Part shown: in pieces, positions 44,738-56,427 of the stretch | How the letters are laid out: each line of letters opens with the position of its first letter | Numbering within the stretch: position 1 is the first letter of the stretch | NCBI GenBank assembly: GCA_037576195.1 | Contig: CM075104.1 | Span: 5,214,775-5,278,774, forward strand | From: Phytoseiulus persimilis | Lineage: Eukaryota > Arthropoda > Arachnida > Mesostigmata > Phytoseiidae | Direction: 5' to 3' | Length of the DNA stretch: 64,000 bases | Translations under genes and position numbers: made by a program | The notes under the pieces: model-generated | Database searches by the model: none | What the model was told of the DNA's origin: nothing | Seen by the model: only the letters and a program-made list of their open reading frames with translations

Positions 44738-45415
44738 TCAGGTTTCGTTAACCAGATCCATGCACATGAAACAAGACACTCGACAGCTTCATCGTTCCGG
44801 GAACGGTGTGGTCTCTTCCCTCTACTTTTCCACAGGCGTCGGACAAGGAATGAATATGCATAAAGAGGAATCCCAAAGAGGAAGTCGTAGGACTCTCCTG
44901 ATTTCTTTCAGAGAGACATCTTTTCAGTTCATCCTGGGCACAGGTGATCGTGGGGTCTCTTCCACCTCTCAGTCCAGCTAGATCAGCGCCCAGCTCTTCG
45001 AACTCGGAAAACGAGGTTTCTCGCGAATCGGTTCATTAAATCTGTCCCCACGCTATTGTTGAATCAAGCGTGGGAGGGCTCATCAGTGGGGCTGGAATTT
45101 CGTTCGAAAAACGCGAATATCGCGGCGGATCGCGGTCACGAATCGGGAATTCGCGGAAACTGAGTAAATCGCTCGAGAATCGTGGAGAGAGATGAGATCG
45201 TGTGAGTTCCGCAGACAACCCGATCAAAACTGAGTACATGGTGCAACGATGCAGAACACACACTATTTTATCAACTTGAGCACAGCATGAGCACCTTGCA
45301 ATACTAGAGAGGTCCTGTCACAGCCTGTGAATTCGTCCACCTCAGACGATGGGGACGGATTTGACTTGGAATATTATAGTGTAGATTTGCGTTGAGCTTG
45401 ATCTGTATCCAAACT

Positions 45416-45898
45416 CTAGGGCATACCAGTGTTAAGACGGAGCATGTTGCTGACGACTAAATTTGGCTCAGCGATGTTACGGCGGTCATTTCTCAATACT
45501 TTCGAGAACATGCTGGGAGACCGCTCAGCGGCAACACTGCCGGCTCCAACGCTGAGGCAAATTAGCGCTATTATAGGAAGTCTCGTGAAGCGTTGGGCTA
45601 AGGCAAGCCAGATGTCCCCGGGGTTACTGAAGCAATTGAAGTTTTTGATCGAGTTCCAGAACATTCTGAGCTCCGCCTTCGTCAACTCTACCACGTCGAG
45701 CCAGGGAATATGCTCGAAGACGTAATCACGAGCTACTGAAGTGATTCGAACGTTCTCGATCACCGCTGTGGAAGCCGGGAACGACAGAAATCGCGTAAGA
45801 GGCCAAGAATCGCGACTTCCGCGATTTTCTTCAAGCCCTACGCATCGGTCCTGGAGTATCGTGGGCAGTTCCGATGCCTCCTTGAATATGCTCCGAAA
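45416..45898 (-). mobile_element. hAT-family transposase C-terminal remnant
   Basis: The minus-strand frame is open for 161 codons without needing an ATG. Its last 80 residues match the hAT dimerisation region pattern: a Trp-led helix (DIWLALAQRF), LPIIALICLSVGAGSVAAER, then a helix with LRNDRR and a final NLVVSNMLRLN. The SVAAERSxS core corresponds to the family's (A/S)SxxxERxFS signature, here with Pro where Phe is usual. The frame is closed upstream by a stop; a second minus-strand frame (45899-46144) may continue the element after a frameshift. The zinc finger, the catalytic triad and recognisable termini are not visible, so the copy is presumably dead. Confidence 0.6.
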
Positions 45899-48476
45899 CT
45901 AGTGACAGACTTCCTGAGGAATGCCGATGCTCAGTTTCCGTCGGGAGCGCGTATCCCACATGGTCGCAAGCGCAATAGATGAACTCGGGTTAAGCAGTTC
46001 AGTGGAGTGACAGGCAACAGTATTCTCGCATCCTGCAGGGCGACCAGGGATAAGGCACTCTTTCCCTGAGAATTGTGATGGGACCCGACCCGAAAACCCA
46101 GAAGCAAACCTACGGAACTGAGCGAGGGGGCACACACCTTTCATGGCTGCGCCAAAACTGTCAGGACCATGAGGCTTCTTCCCGAACGATCCCGAGATTC
46201 TCCTCTCACAATGACACTGTGCACTCCCTCACGCAAGCTCCATTGTGTTTCCAGCCCCATCAATCAAGCTATTTAGTCTAGCAGTCGTGAAAGAAGACAC
46301 TACTCGTCATCATGCGAAATGTCCTCTGTCTCGAATGAGGCGGGCGCATGCCCTGGCGATTCCTGCGGTACGCTGTTCTGTGAGTTACCCCTCTGTCTCC
46401 CTAGAAGCTCTTCGTCTCGCGCGCACTTGCGTGGAAATCAGGCAGATGAGACTGAACTTCCTCTCAACAGAGACGAGCGTGGGTCAAGAGACTGTTTTCC
46501 GCTGTTTCCCCATTTCACTTCATGCGCGCCTCTTTTGCCCGCCTCGTTGATAACATCTTGATGCGCCAGGTCCGCTCCCTCAGACAGTCAGACCGGAGTG
46601 AGTCGACTTGTTGCTCAGACTAAGTACCGGAGTTGGGGAATCACCCTCTTAGACAGCCGCTCTCAGTTTGCGAGTCGGCATATATTCACTCTCATACCAT
46701 TTCAGGAATCGGAGGCCGTGAGCCGGACAATTGCTCAAATCGGGATAACCATGACGAGAACGGTAGTAGAAAGAACTGGGAATCAATGGGAACTTTGGGC
46801 ACATTCTGTCAGAGAAGAAGGACTTCATATCTTGCCCACGATTCGCGGAGGCTGTGTATTCTTGCTGTTCTTGGCAATTCAGACCTCGCGGGCGTGTACT
46901 CTGGTTCAGTGCTTCACCGATCGTGCTCAGGACACGGAACAACATTGGACGACCCAGGAAGATTCACACATGATGTTTTAGTCAATGAATCGGCCTCCTG
47001 TGGATGTTCTCAGATCCTTGTCACATCTCGAGCGAACATAGCCTGAATCCGAAAAAATCGGATAGGGACTCATGACCAGGGGATGACGCAACCGAGTCAG
47101 CGGCGATGTCCTCTGAGAGAAAATTTATGAAGATAGCGTTGGCAGTGTGGCTTCAATCGACCGAGGGATTTAGGCGAAGGAATTCTCGGCTCGGCTCTCT
47201 TCGTGCTCTTGAAGCTTGTGGACAGCAACAGTTCGCAGCAATTTTTGGTTTTAGCATCATGTTGTGCGCACCGCACGTTGGCATACCCAGCCATTCCCGG
47301 CGGCGTTCACCTCGCGGGCGCTGCAAGGTGGATCCGCTCGACACGCTGGCAGCTGGCCGGAGATTCTTCCCCGCCCGATGGGTCTCCTCCTCCTCTGTTT
47401 CGTCTCGGCGCTCCTCTCGAACGTCGCGGTTCCTCTTCTCTTCGTAGGCTCCTTAGGCGGACACACCCTCAGCAAACAGAGTCGAGGGTTACACACAGAG
47501 AACGCAGACACGAAGAAAAACCAACGAAATGTCGTTTACAGTCGCGCGTAAACAGCTGTTCACAGTTACTCCTGATCGGATGGTCGTGCTGTACCATCTG
47601 GCGTTGGAACGAAAAACAACAACGACGACAATGATGGTTGGGCTGATGATGACGATGATATGACGACAGCACCGCTGACGCCGGCTGCAGCAACAACAAC
47701 AACGTCGACGACGACTGAGATGACTTTCGGGACCAGATCGACGGAGAAGAGAAAATGAGTGGCGTTCCGCGCAGAAGAGATTCCGATGACCACAGCTTCT
47801 TCCAAAAGATACACGTCCAATTCGTGCCCAACCAGTTTCGGCGAGGGAGTGCAGAAACTCGCTTCTTCCTGTGCACCCCTCCAGGTCACGCTAAGAGCAT
47901 GGGAAACACTTGCGATGAACTTTCTTCAGCGGCTCAGTGTTGTTTCATGTTATGGACCCCCCTTGCGAATTCCCAAAGAGTTCCTCGATACTGGAAAGGA
48001 TAGCACAGCCGTTGATTATTCTCTTTTCTAAGATTGAAGAACTCAGACTCGGTGGTTGGGAGTCTGTCTCTCCATTGAGGCACGATCTCACACGATTCAA
48101 CAAATGCTCAAAATCGGGAGGATTTTTTGTTGTTGTTTTCTTTCCAATCGATTCCTTCAGTACATACCGTGTTTTTCAAACAGTGCCCATTCAGAAAGCC
48201 AACCCATTAAGATAAACCATACCTCGATTTTCGAACATTTCGGCTATATGAGCCGTGCCGAGAATATGCCCCGACTCTGTTAGCCGTAGCTGGAACTAAT
48301 CTAAGCGTGGAGCCCGCCCGCGAGAAATGTCGGAAGGAGCCTGAGACCTCGAAGTTGTCTGGTTTAGTGAGTGCCGATTAGAGATAACGCCTGTAGGCTG
48401 AGAAGCTTGTTGCACTCATTTGTTCCGAGTTCGAGGTGGTTGGAGGACTCTAATTTTTGTTCAGGAAAATATTTAA
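45899..48476. other. stretch between two transposon remnants
   Basis: This is probably decayed mobile-element sequence, but I recognise no transposase in it. At 47378 a plus-strand ATG opens a 57-codon frame with a signal-peptide-like start (MGLLLLCFVSALLSNVAV), followed 90 bases later by a possible acceptor (TTCACAG) and a low-complexity Asp/Asn then Thr-rich frame ending at about 47757. Whether these join as one small secreted protein is undecided. ACA/ACG-rich trinucleotide sequence at 47610-47720 makes open frames on both strands. Confidence 0.35.
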
Positions 48477-48977
48477 CCTATTTCGGGCGTGTTTGTTCTT
48501 CGATCTGAGGAAGCATGGGTGCGTCAAGATGTGACTAGGAAATGGGTTCTTTCGATGTCGGCGCCAATCGTTCGTGATGGACAAAGAGGACTCATTCTCT
48601 GGGATTCGGCGAGCATCCATCGTGCATGGTTAGTGAAGACTTTCCTCACCACGGGAGGGGTGGATCGGATCATGATTCCTTCTCGCATGCACGGGTACCT
48701 AAAGACTTTGGACCTTGCGATAAATGAACCCTTCAAATTTCACCCGCGCCATGAAGTCAATCAATACATAGACCGCCGCATGGGGGGAAATGCACGAGGC
48801 AACTTCGTCAAACCCAGCCTATCTGAAGCAGTGTCATGGGTCAATATCCTCAATGATTGTGTGAGAAATACATTGAGAGCTGGTTATCTTGAGAGAACTT
48901 TGAACAGCCTACACGACGGAATGGTCCTCCCGCGACCCGCCAACGAGAAACGGAATGGGTCTCCTCGAACTCGATGA
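48477..48977 (+). mobile_element. pogo/Tigger-type DDE transposase, C-terminal fragment
   Basis: The frame is open from 48477 and encodes the second half of a DDE_1 (pogo/Tigger, CENP-B-like) catalytic domain. It contains LILWDSASIH, whose Asp (48603-48605) aligns with the second catalytic Asp of the family's LLxxDxxxxH motif. It then has the IMIPSRMHGYLKTLDLAIN block, equivalent to the family's IPxxxTxxLQPLDVxIN, with the third catalytic Asp at 48711-48713. The spacing of 35 intervening residues fits the family. A following PSLSEAVSWV...LRAGYLE segment matches the usual helical end. The first catalytic Asp and the DNA-binding domain are absent: an in-frame stop lies just upstream. The conserved Gln-Pro before the last Asp is replaced by Lys-Thr. 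This is a decayed partial copy. Confidence 0.75.
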
Positions 48978-50326: not shown

Positions 50327-53300
50327 ATGGACACCTTCTACAGGACCGCACTCAGACTGCATAAAACGGCGCTGTACATAAAGCGGTGAGTCGAGAAACT
50401 TCGTACAACTCCAATGAATCGCAGAGTCGATGTCTTCCGTGAATTCGTTCGATATCAGTCCCTCCCGATTCGCGGCGCGTCGCGATGATCAATAGGAATG
50501 ACAGGAGCCACTAATGATGGCACGCAGACGATAAGGCGTCCAGATCAGGGTTTCAATTAATGATTCCGCGGAACCGAGCGAGCGAGGACGGTGAGCATCG
50601 CGACGGGGAAGTTCTGATCTTCCGAGCCACAGCCGCTCCGCTCCCTGTTCCACTCCAACTCGATGTTTGCAGTTGCCAACCTGACCAACCGTTCGGAAAT
50701 GGTCGAGGGACGTGGAGGTGGTGGCACCGACGGCAACGGAAGAAGCGCAATCTGACCGACCGCACATTCTGGTCGATTGCCTTCCATCAACATGCTCGGT
50801 TATTATTTTTTGGGAGGTCGCGTGCGCTTTGTCGTCGCCCTCGTCGTCGTGAACATCGACGGTCACGTTCTCCCGGACACCGCGCGGCACCCACTCATAT
50901 CGGCTGCCAGAAGCGACTGCGTGCCGCTCCCGACCGTGGCAATCTGGCGAATCTCCCACGATTTCGCTCGGCTGCTCCTCTCGGGTCCGCTCCCCGTAGC
51001 CATCTTGGCCCGAGGATGTTTGTGGCGTGCGGGAAAGCTACTACAGTTCTGACGTGTCTAATAAAACGAACAATTCGTATTGAACGATGGAAGGGCTGGG
51101 TCGGCTTCCGAGTCAGGGGAGCAGCTAGCTTAATCCCACGACCGAGTCGCGGAATCCTGGGAAGCTCCTGGCGTGCCGAGGTCGAAACGCTGAGATTCTC
51201 GTCCCGTGCCCCTTCAGAAGAGTTCCGAACCGAGTTGGTGAGCATTCGCAGAGCGCGAAAGCCTCGAAGGATAAACTCAGCGACAAAGACACTTTGGTGG
51301 CCGTGGCAGCTTCACTCAGGATCGTCGGCGTTTACGTCGTCGCACAAACGTCAAGTTCGGTAAGAGAGAAATCCACTTATTTCCGTATGCTCGATAGCTC
51401 TAGACTACTAGAATGCCATCTCGTTCAGCTGTTTGCTTCGTGTTCTCGATATACTCTTGGAACTGATTCTGAGATCAGTTCGAGATCTTCTCCCGCTGGA
51501 ACAGTTTGAAGGGCGCTCCCCAATGGGCCCAACAGAGAAAAGAACGTCCGCAAACTTTGAAAAATCCCGCGCCCATTTCTTGCGAGGGCCCCGCTCTAGC
51601 CAAGATCGATCCTTGACCTCAATCGTTCGTTGTAGTTCCAGGACCCTGCTCCGAGACCCGATGTTGCAGAGGCATGAGCTGTGCGACGGACAGTTGTAAC
51701 TTGAAGCCGTTTTGTCACGAGGAAAATTATATTTCAGGTGTTGAAAACGTTCAGTGTGGGGTTCCCCCTGCTGAGCGTGGTTTTCCAACTCTCAAATATA
51801 GGACTCGTTGTGTTCGGATTGGTGCACAGTACATTCCAGGTAGGCCCTCTACTGAATTTCTTTGATTCCGCTGTGATTCGTGAGAGCACAGGCAAACCGC
51901 GTTCCGCGCTCCTGGGGCGGTCACAGGTGATCCGACAGGCCGCCCTGGTCATGTTTAATGATTCCTAGTCGACGTTCCATATCTCTTCGATGATGACTCT
52001 ATCATACGGTAACCGAAGGGGAGACTGAGAGCGCGCACACCGCGGTCGCCGAGCAAAGACGCAGATTGCTCCTCGGTACTTTGTTGCAATTTTTTTACAC
52101 TCTCCTACCGTGAATACCCGCCAGCTGCGAGGCTCCGCCCGGACATCCCTTGGACGAATTACCCGAAACAGAGAGGAATCCCGAGATTGCATGTGTGTCC
52201 GGCAAGATACGCGTCACCGCTAATTTTTTCCTGAGTCCAGCGGAACTATTCTTCCATCATCTTTTGAGAGCCTGGATAGGCGCCTCCAACCGGTCGGCAC
52301 TCGGACAGCCGAAGCACGTAAGGTGTCCGATACGAGAGACCTGAGGGAGCCAGTCCGGCCGTTCCCGCAAACGAAGAGATCGTACCTGGGAGAAGAGGGT
52401 TGACGGGAGCTTTTCCTGTAGGAATCGAAGCTATCCGCGCTGTAGACAGGCCCCAACCCTCTTGACCGCCCGTCTGGTTCCCAAGCACAAATGTCCTTTC
52501 GTTGTATTCCACATTATTCCCCGCGGTCATGATATGCGTGCTTTGGAGCGGGGAGGCTCGCATGGGGGAAGGCGTGACTTGTTCCCACTGAGTCCCTTCA
52601 TTCGAACACGGAACTCATCGAAGCCCACCGATCGACGATTCGTATACCTACCTCGGAGAACGGGAACCGATGTCACCGGGATAAACGATTTGGCGTGAGC
52701 TGCACAGCTTTCGAGAAGAAACGCATTCTCAGAAATATGAGGCAGCGCTTCTGGAACGAGGCCCTCCAGAGAACAGGACTTGTGAGAACCCGGTGAGAAG
52801 ATATGCCACTCATTTCTACCAGAGACACTGGAAATCGAAGCTGATGCGCACTGGGAGAACAAGAGTCCACCGAAGATTGTGTGCGGATGAATACGTGCGC
52901 GGAGACCGACGTGATTGAAAACTCCCCCACCCGGGGTCTGGGCGCGCCGCGGTTCTACGACAGTTTGCTAAAGCTGTCGTAATTATTCGCTCATCCATTA
53001 TGGAATGCTCCAGGACAGCGGAAATCGTTGAGCCAACGAGGCCCGACTGAAGATGAGGTGTACATATTTATCAAGCGGCTGTGTTTACCATTCATTGAGG
53101 TCGTCGTCGTCCTGCGTAGAGAAGCAGACGAGCTCATGAAACGACCCGAGGGAGGAGGACTGAAAGGCACGAACAGCTCGAAACAAACGACGCTTAATAC
53201 ATCATTCACTGTTTTAGTTCGTCCAATTTTTCCCGTGTGGCCTTTCATCTTACACTGATGTCGAGTGACACGTCTCCGAACTTCCCTCTGGCAAACACTT

Positions 53301-56168
53301 TCTTCCCGCTCGGGGCTCATCCGAAAATGGCAGTCGGAACGGGACTAACCGGTTCCATGCTCGTCTCTCGTAGGGCTTCCTCCTGTCTCAACTGTCGCAG
53401 CTACTCTCGTCGGTATGCGCCCTGATCTGCTCTGTGACTCTACTGTGCTCGGGTCGTCGCCTGAATTGGATACGGATCCGATCCATATCTCTATTAGCGA
53501 GTCTTCCCGATCGAGGGGAGTCTTGTTCGTTTGCCGTCGTTTCGCTCGTCGTCGTGGGCTGGATCTATATGATGGCGCGTTTCGTGGCCTTGGGTTGGGT
53601 GCTCAACAATCAGATGCCTCGAGAGGCGTATAAGGTACGTATGCTTACGGAGCGTCTGTCCGACGCGGCTTGGCGTCATCATCGGCCCCGACAGATAAGT
53701 TCGGCGGTATGAATGGGGATAGTAGTCACGAATGAATCGGTGAATTCGGGTTTATCGATGGTTCCTCTGTCTTTTCCAGAACGTCTACGGGGTGGAAGCA
53801 CCGCATTCCTCGAACCCGAGGACGCTGCTGTTGCTGGTGGGGCTGTATTGGTACTTGAACAATCTTTTTACGAACGGGACGCTGGTGTTCGTTCCGATCT
53901 ACTATATGGCCTTTTGTATCGTGTTGGCTCATTCGTTCAGCGTTCACTGCCGCAGACTGAAGTCAATGCAGAGGAGCCTCGCCAGATGTGAGTTCCACTG
54001 AATGTCATCCAGCTCCGATCTGTGTTCCGCTGGAGCCGCGTGAGGGTTTCCCGAAAAGAGATGATTCCTCGAGGCCGCCCCGTCGATAGAGAGGGGTCGT
54101 TACGAGAAAGGGCGAATGGAAGACGCCTCAACGTAAGAGAGTGCACATCTGTCGATACACCTTCAGAATCAGTAAGGACCCGGGTCCGCAGACCTCGTAT
54201 TCCTCTGACTCAAAGGATCACTCACGGATGAGGACGCTCATGAAACAATTCCCTCGAGTGTCTACGCCGCAAGTTTGAGCCGAGCTCGGGAACTCCCGTC
54301 GTTACCGACAGGGTTCCTTGAATCCACAGAGCGTAGGTTCAGAGGAGGCGATTCGTAACCTTTCACGACCTAAATGTCTGTCAGGACCGTATTCGGGCTC
54401 TGATAGCCTTCGGAGTCGGAAGTTTTGCCCTTCAAAGCTCCTTCGAGTCAGTGATGCTCTCACTCGGGGCAAAATTTATCCGTTGAAGAGCCCCATTTCG
54501 TCGGTTTCCGCCGCGGGACCGCATTTTGGGAAATGATCGTGCACGAGCTGGGGACACAGCTGGATGTCGTCTGTGGTTGCGAAGCCCGTGTGGATCGAAA
54601 TCATTCTGCGTCGATCAATCTCATTATATTTAATGAATTCCAGTGATGGTCGCCGATGATTTGGCGAACATAAGGGCTTTCTACGAAAGGGTTTGTGCGT
54701 TGGCGCTCGATGTCAATCGCGCGTTTGGTAGAATCGTCTTCGCTTGGTACATCAAGATCGTTCTCAGTATCTGCGTGGATTTCACGCAGCTATTCAGGTC
54801 AGTGCGGGTCGAAAGTTTAACTAAAACCCGACACTCCCCCCTTATTCCTTGCTTCGTCTCACCGGCGGCGATTCCCTGTGGCTTGACTGGCTCATATCTC
54901 AGGATTAGTTCGCGAATCTCATGTTTGAACGCATTAGTTTAATTTCCGAAACGTTGTGTACGTTCAACTTTTCGCTCCTTCTTTCTTTGCCTGAATATCA
55001 CGTACCTCTAGCCCGATCGGAGACAACGCCGAAGCAACGTCGAGCGCTATCAGCGGGTGATCTTGTGAAGGGAAAACTAATCTCTTGCTCTCTCATGCTT
55101 GCACGCAGCGATCATGAATTGCTCGATTCGGCCAGGCAGGAGGAAACTTTCCTCTTCAGTTTGAGGGTTATCTACTCGTTCCTCACATTCCTGGGCACCT
55201 GTATCGCGGCCGCGCAGGTATCCGAGAACGCCTCGCGACCCTTGCCCATACTCCACACCTTGACACTGCGGTCATCTCGTCTAGACATGAACACCAAGAT
55301 GGAGGCTCACTTCTTCTTGTCACGGTACTTACTTTAAACTGATCTTTGAGTTCTTATTCCTGTGCTGATATTAGTTGTCTTAGAGAACTGTGCGTGACCC
55401 CGGAGTATTCACCCTCGTCACATCGGAGTCTCGACACAGGCCAGACGATCCGCTGAAAGTTCAAGGCCGGATGCGTCATCCCCAATGAGAGCGTTGACCA
55501 AGCGTTAAGCGTCGGATGATGTATCCGAGAACACGGTCTCTCTTAGTGAGCTTTGCGATGGGAATTGGATAGATATTCGTTCTTGGTAATTCTCTAATGG
55601 CCGGCACAATGAGAGAGCGCCTTAGGCTTTCGCGCCGTTGACAAAGCTCCTTCAGAATGGTTAGCGCAGCGGTGACATCGAGACGTTGACCTCCACTCCA
55701 TGGCATCCGTGGTGTCATCGAGAAGACGGGCCGCTCTATAAAATGGAGGGGAGAGGGCGCAAAGCTGCTTTTACCAGCTTTGTTGACGGGGAGAATACTC
55801 ATTTCTTGCTTGGCATGGATCGTCCACAGACCATCCTACAAAGGGTTTTCCTGGAAGCTCTTATCGAAAATCATTGCATGGCAGTCCGAATGTCGATGTC
55901 CATGGAGGGCCGGACGACCGGAAGTATCTCCCACAGTTTTTCACCGTCGGAACCGCTCGATTTCAGACTAACCGCCTCGCCGGTCGTGTTGACCGGATGG
56001 GACTTCTTCGTCATCAGTCGCAGCTTCATTCTGAGCGTGGCGGCTGCGCTAACAACATACATTGTGATCATGATCCAAATGAATCCGAAGGCGATGCGGA
56101 CAATCAACCGGTTGGTTTCGACGGCACTGAACTCGACGACGAATTCTACGAGCGTTTCTAATGATTGA
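50327..56168 (+). CDS. gustatory-receptor-like 7TM protein (7tm_7), 8 exons
   Basis: Exons: 50327-50385, 51320-51359, 51738-51839, 53374-53634, 53780-53987, 54644-54797, 55109-55324, 55967-56168. All introns are GT-AG, phases 2,0,0,0,1,2,2, total 1242 nt (413 residues), the usual size for the family. The start is the only in-frame ATG after a stop, with a GTCATGG context. Residues 1-33 form a basic, amphipathic cytoplasmic N-terminus. Membrane segments lie at about 41-62, 70-92, 119-144, 188-209, 254-274, 289-311 and 359-385. The last contains TYIVIMIQ (377-384), the family signature TYhhhhhQ, followed by Met instead of the usual Phe. It is preceded by LTGWDFFVISRSFILSV, the typical lead-in. 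Members are ligand-gated cation channel subunits with inverted topology in chemosensory or other neurons. The ligand cannot be inferred. Exons 1-2 are short and are the least certain part. No stop or frameshift is needed, so it looks intact. Confidence 0.85.
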
Positions 56169-56421: not shown

Positions 56422-56427
56422 AATAAA
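56422..56427 (+). terminator. candidate poly(A) signal of the receptor gene
   Basis: AATAAA lies 254 bp after the stop codon at 56168 and is followed 40-70 bases later by a G/T-rich stretch (TATGGTGTAGTTGG), as expected for a cleavage and polyadenylation site. Confidence 0.5.

Follow-up and report, generated by a model that had tools for sequence, protein, structure and literature searches.

The gustatory receptor BmGr9 is, according to PMC11100771, a fructose-gated tetrameric cation channel, and the same paper gives the C-terminal motif TYhhhhhQF. In BmGr9 the hydroxyls of the motif's T residues form a ring in the pore, fructose binding makes the Q swing inwards into the pore, and the F belongs to a hydrophobic gate (PMC11100771). 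As for acarines, PMC5467014 reports that the mite T. mercedesae has five gustatory receptors and the mite Metaseiulus occidentalis 64, and states that the five of T. mercedesae cluster with those of a tick and share a common ancestor with a fly sugar receptor. For N. cucumeris the published count is 24.

The locus described here lies in a 64-kb window (the whole stretch of DNA that was analysed) and, judged from its sequence, is very probably an apparently intact arthropod gustatory receptor gene of the 7tm_7 family (PF08395), of about 413–447 residues in eight coding exons, and probably belongs to a parasitiform mite. It is an ordinary member of a known family. Arthropod gustatory receptor genes are well known, and its recognition is therefore a matter of sound gene-finding, not a surprise.

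An eight-exon chain and the start of exon 2

A sequence-only reading of this DNA, which gave the outer ends of the gene without the inner exon ends, had proposed eight exons between 50327 and 56168. Independent re-chaining, with splice sites chosen by eye and then checked by script, reproduced this proposal on the forward strand, including the size of the longest coding exon, and with exon 2 taken as 51320–51359 the chain amounts to 1242 nt, or 413 codons and a TGA stop (Table 1). By the scripted check of the chain all seven introns are GT-AG, their phases are compatible and the exons form one uninterrupted frame; the introns range from 145 to 1534 nt in the model with the exon 2 acceptor at 51218.

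Table 1. Coordinates of the gene model and a possible downstream signal, in positions of the window
Feature	Positions	Strand	Remarks
Exon 1	50327–50385	+	Contains the one ATG in its open frame; donor GTGAGT; no Pfam match
Exon 2, modestly preferred form	51218–51359	+	Acceptor CCCCTTCAG/A; 51320–51359 implied by 413 codons
Exon 3	51738–51839	+	Hydrophobic segment, candidate S1
Exon 4	53374–53634	+	Longest exon (261 nt); candidate S2 and S3, both hydrophobic
Exon 5	53780–53987	+	Hydrophobic segment, candidate S4; 7tm_7 match starts here; alone no Pfam match
Exon 6	54644–54797	+	Candidate S5; by itself scores 16.9 bits to 7tm_7 (subthreshold)
Exon 7	55109–55324	+	Candidate S6; donor GTACTT, off consensus; alone no Pfam match
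Exon 8	55967–56168	+	Candidate S7 pore helix with TYIVIMIQM; stop TGA 56166–56168
AATAAA, possible poly(A) signal	56422–56427	+	About 255 bases 3' of the stop; six-base match, chance possible

The claim of exactly 413 codons stands for one start of exon 2, namely the acceptor at 51320, which was deduced from the codon count itself; four other acceptors are also open. Joined to the exon 1 donor at 50385, the acceptors 51218, 51221, 51254, 51281 and 51320 give proteins of 447, 446, 435, 426 and 413 residues, respectively. Pyrimidines occupy 14 of the 17 positions from −20 to −4 for acceptor 51218, compared to 10 for 51320 and 7 for 51281, and 51218 precedes other AGs, with the later exon 2 acceptors lying behind AGs. 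The hydrophobic stretch DTLVAVAASLRIVGVYVVA is whole with acceptor 51218 or 51281 and is cut by 51320; an N-terminal hydrophobic stretch of this kind is usual in the gustatory receptor family. We modestly favor acceptor 51218 (447 residues) over 51320 (413 residues), and the preference is modest because three accepted acceptors elsewhere in the gene, 51738 (7 pyrimidines), 54644 (10) and 55967 (10), score no better than 51320 or 51281. The description of the gene as complete is consequently upheld in part: the frame is open and its junctions are GT-AG, but completeness is less secure given the ambiguous exon 2 acceptor and the absence of a Pfam match to exons 1–4.

The chain carries a coding signal in its base composition, as GC at codon positions 1, 2 and 3 is 0.48, 0.42 and 0.68 overall and position 3 clearly exceeds the other two in seven of the eight exons, exon 2 being the one where it barely does (0.57, 0.47, and 0.58). 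Hydropathy analysis (Kyte-Doolittle, 19-residue scan) of the 447-residue variant found eight hydrophobic segments at a threshold of 1.6: an N-terminal one (residues 44–62) followed by seven others. Composition-preserving shuffles of the protein (500) had a mean of 3.52 segments and a maximum of eight, and since shuffles can reach the observed number, the segment count alone is suggestive, not decisive. Hydropathy is thus weak evidence, and the case is carried by the family match.

Family match, pore motif and support for the junctions

The search against 7tm_7 that the sequence-only reading had proposed gave a match of 65.5 bits to the 413-residue model (E 7.3e-18, residues 176–384), well placed against a gathering score of 26.6, and a second Pfam family, Trehalose_recp (PF06151), matched at 41.4 bits (cut-off 21, residues 147–388). 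The values for the 447-residue variant were 65.4 and 41.7 bits, respectively. In a search of PDB sequences with the 426-residue variant (E up to 10), three distinct sequences were found: two of the Drosophila-type sugar receptor Gr64a (8ze0 and 8jme, E 1.1e-6 and 2.5e-6), to which the C-terminal half is alignable, and the insect odorant receptor MhOR5 (7lic, E 0.0013), whose alignment is confined to the S6–S7 region, residues 306–401 of that variant. When a Gr64a fragment was used as the query, the only entries reached beside Gr64a were MhOR5 and odorant receptor/Orco entries; Gr43a and BmGr9 were not reached.

The C-terminal TYhhhhhQ signature noted earlier is present, and it fits TYhhhhhQF at all but the last letter, where M replaces F. 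Together with the 7tm_7 and Gr64a matches it supports the gustatory-receptor-like identity that had been read from the sequence. The gene resembles the 7tm_7 gustatory receptors in its profile match and this signature, and possibly also in its hydrophobic segments, and differs from them in the final motif residue and in a first half to which the profile does not extend. Compared to BmGr9, this receptor keeps the T, Y and Q of the motif, and its M, in place of F, is also hydrophobic. By analogy, we infer that it may work as BmGr9 does. On the pattern of the family, it would assemble as a tetramer into a ligand-gated cation channel in sensory neurons, binding of a small molecule within the helix bundle would move S5, and the S7b helix bearing TYhhhhhQ would open the pore. 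Tetramer formation, gating and expression in sensory cells are all suggested by its relatives.

Homology support for the model rests on exons 5–8. When these exons were joined, the fragment scored 67.9 bits to 7tm_7, more than any of them alone, so the joins themselves carry signal. Exon 8 alone scored 24.4 bits to 7tm_7, below the cut-off of 26.6, and 26.7 bits to Trehalose_recp, above the cut-off of 21. A single frame therefore does betray the receptor family, contrary to the earlier statement that no single open frame shows this, if that statement refers to the receptor identity. The related prediction that automated annotation would miss the gene is likewise not supported, based on this exon, on the fact that introns are modeled by gene finders (which is routine in eukaryotes) and on the presence of gustatory receptor genes in published mite genomes.

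Junctions were ranked by the pairwise score to the Gr64a fragment, varying one junction at a time and moving donors by up to 150 bases and acceptors by up to 200, and in the ranges tried there were between 10 and 129 open in-frame choices per junction. The chosen pair at junction 5/6 beats all 32 other open choices. At 4/5, 20 of 54 other choices tie with the chosen one and none is better, while at 6/7 seven of 129 open choices score somewhat better and three tie, and at 7/8 four of 44 score somewhat better and one ties. In view of these better-scoring choices, we consider junctions 6/7 and 7/8 to be good but not proven; overall, the joins of the C-terminal half appear well supported. At junctions 1/2 to 3/4 all choices tie, nine others being level with the chosen one at 1/2.

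The number of open choices per junction, and the fact that a shuffled protein can reach eight hydrophobic segments (the maximum of the 500), might suggest that hydrophobic open frames were chained by chance and that there is no receptor here at all. However, the Gr64a alignment crosses the 5/6, 6/7 and 7/8 joins with nearby gaps of only 1, 3, and 6 residues, and the E value of the 7tm_7 match makes a chance origin so very unlikely that we regard it as practically negligible.

A different possibility is that the gene is a gustatory receptor pseudogene with a recognizable C-terminal half and a decayed N-terminal half, its upstream exons having been chained by chance. Exons 1–4 (188 residues in the 447-residue variant) had no Pfam match even at E up to 10, which speaks for such a pseudogene, as do the ties at junction 1/2 and the transposase-like fragments nearby. 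However, there is no frameshift or stop to pass in any exon, the junctions are GT-AG, and hydrophobic segments are present in exons 3 and 4, whose GC at codon position 3 is 0.65 and 0.64, respectively. Moreover, the N-terminal half is generally less conserved in the gustatory receptor family. We therefore give the pseudogene only a small chance, and retain the reading of an apparently intact receptor gene.

Surroundings of the gene

GC content in 4-kb steps along the window is 50–55%, and about 52% overall; PMC5467014 lists 52% for M. occidentalis and 30–45% for nine other chelicerates. The GC content would thus fit a chelicerate origin, from M. occidentalis or a relative of it, without being proof of it. 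Searches of the 64-kb window with the 447-residue variant (tblastn and phmmer) found no paralogs beyond the gene's own exons, and three other tblastn matches (E 4.3 to 5.7) were taken as noise. In contigs of bacterial and archaeal genomes, a pattern from the 426-residue variant matched 27 stretches, none of which was confirmed as a relative. Rfam at gathering scores and a tRNA scan gave zero matches in the window.

A Pfam scan at E up to 0.01 covered 50 of the 800 open frames of at least 50 residues, and two of these had matches (48 had none). One is a DDE_1 endonuclease/transposase fragment (48477–48974, forward strand, 29.1 bits, cut-off 22) that ends about 1.4 kb 5' of exon 1, and the other a hAT transposase fragment with the dimerisation domain Dimer_Tnp_hAT (45419–45898, reverse strand, 23.3 bits, cut-off 21.4). 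The latter is enclosed by the two arms of a 21-nt inverted repeat (44989–45009 and 48423–48443, arms 3413 nt apart and 81% complementary) that may be due to chance. The window also has 47 stop-free frames of at least 150 codons, versus about seven by a rough hand estimate from base composition; 32 of these long frames were in the Pfam scan, with two matching and 30 not.

Relationship to sugar receptors

Several of the above results raise the question of whether the gene truly belongs to the sugar receptor (Gr5a/Gr64) subfamily: Trehalose_recp exceeds its gathering score in the full model, exon 8 alone leans slightly to that profile, Gr64a is the top match among solved structures, and the T. 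mercedesae receptors, according to PMC5467014, have a common origin with the fly sugar receptor. What argues against membership is which profile leads. In a control, the corresponding region of Gr64a scored 322.4 bits to Trehalose_recp and 61.9 to 7tm_7, whereas in the joined C-terminal fragment of the present gene Trehalose_recp is not the leading profile (50.6 versus 67.9 bits for 7tm_7), so that the balance is reversed, albeit with reference to one control. A Trehalose_recp score above the gathering score does not by itself separate the sugar subfamily, and given the shared ancestry of the T. mercedesae receptors a likeness to sugar receptors is expected of an acarine gustatory receptor. 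We regard true membership of the subfamily as improbable, and read the gene, on the strength of these profile scores, as probably a general gustatory receptor with some likeness to sugar receptors.

The locus represents one more gustatory receptor gene of the kind already counted in mite genomes. Its value lies in its correct annotation, that of exon 2 above all, and in an added sequence for the poorly understood acarine receptors. That this is a mite receptor branching close to the base of the sugar-receptor lineage is unlikely, but if true it would make the gene useful for asking whether sugar sensing by gustatory receptors predates insects.
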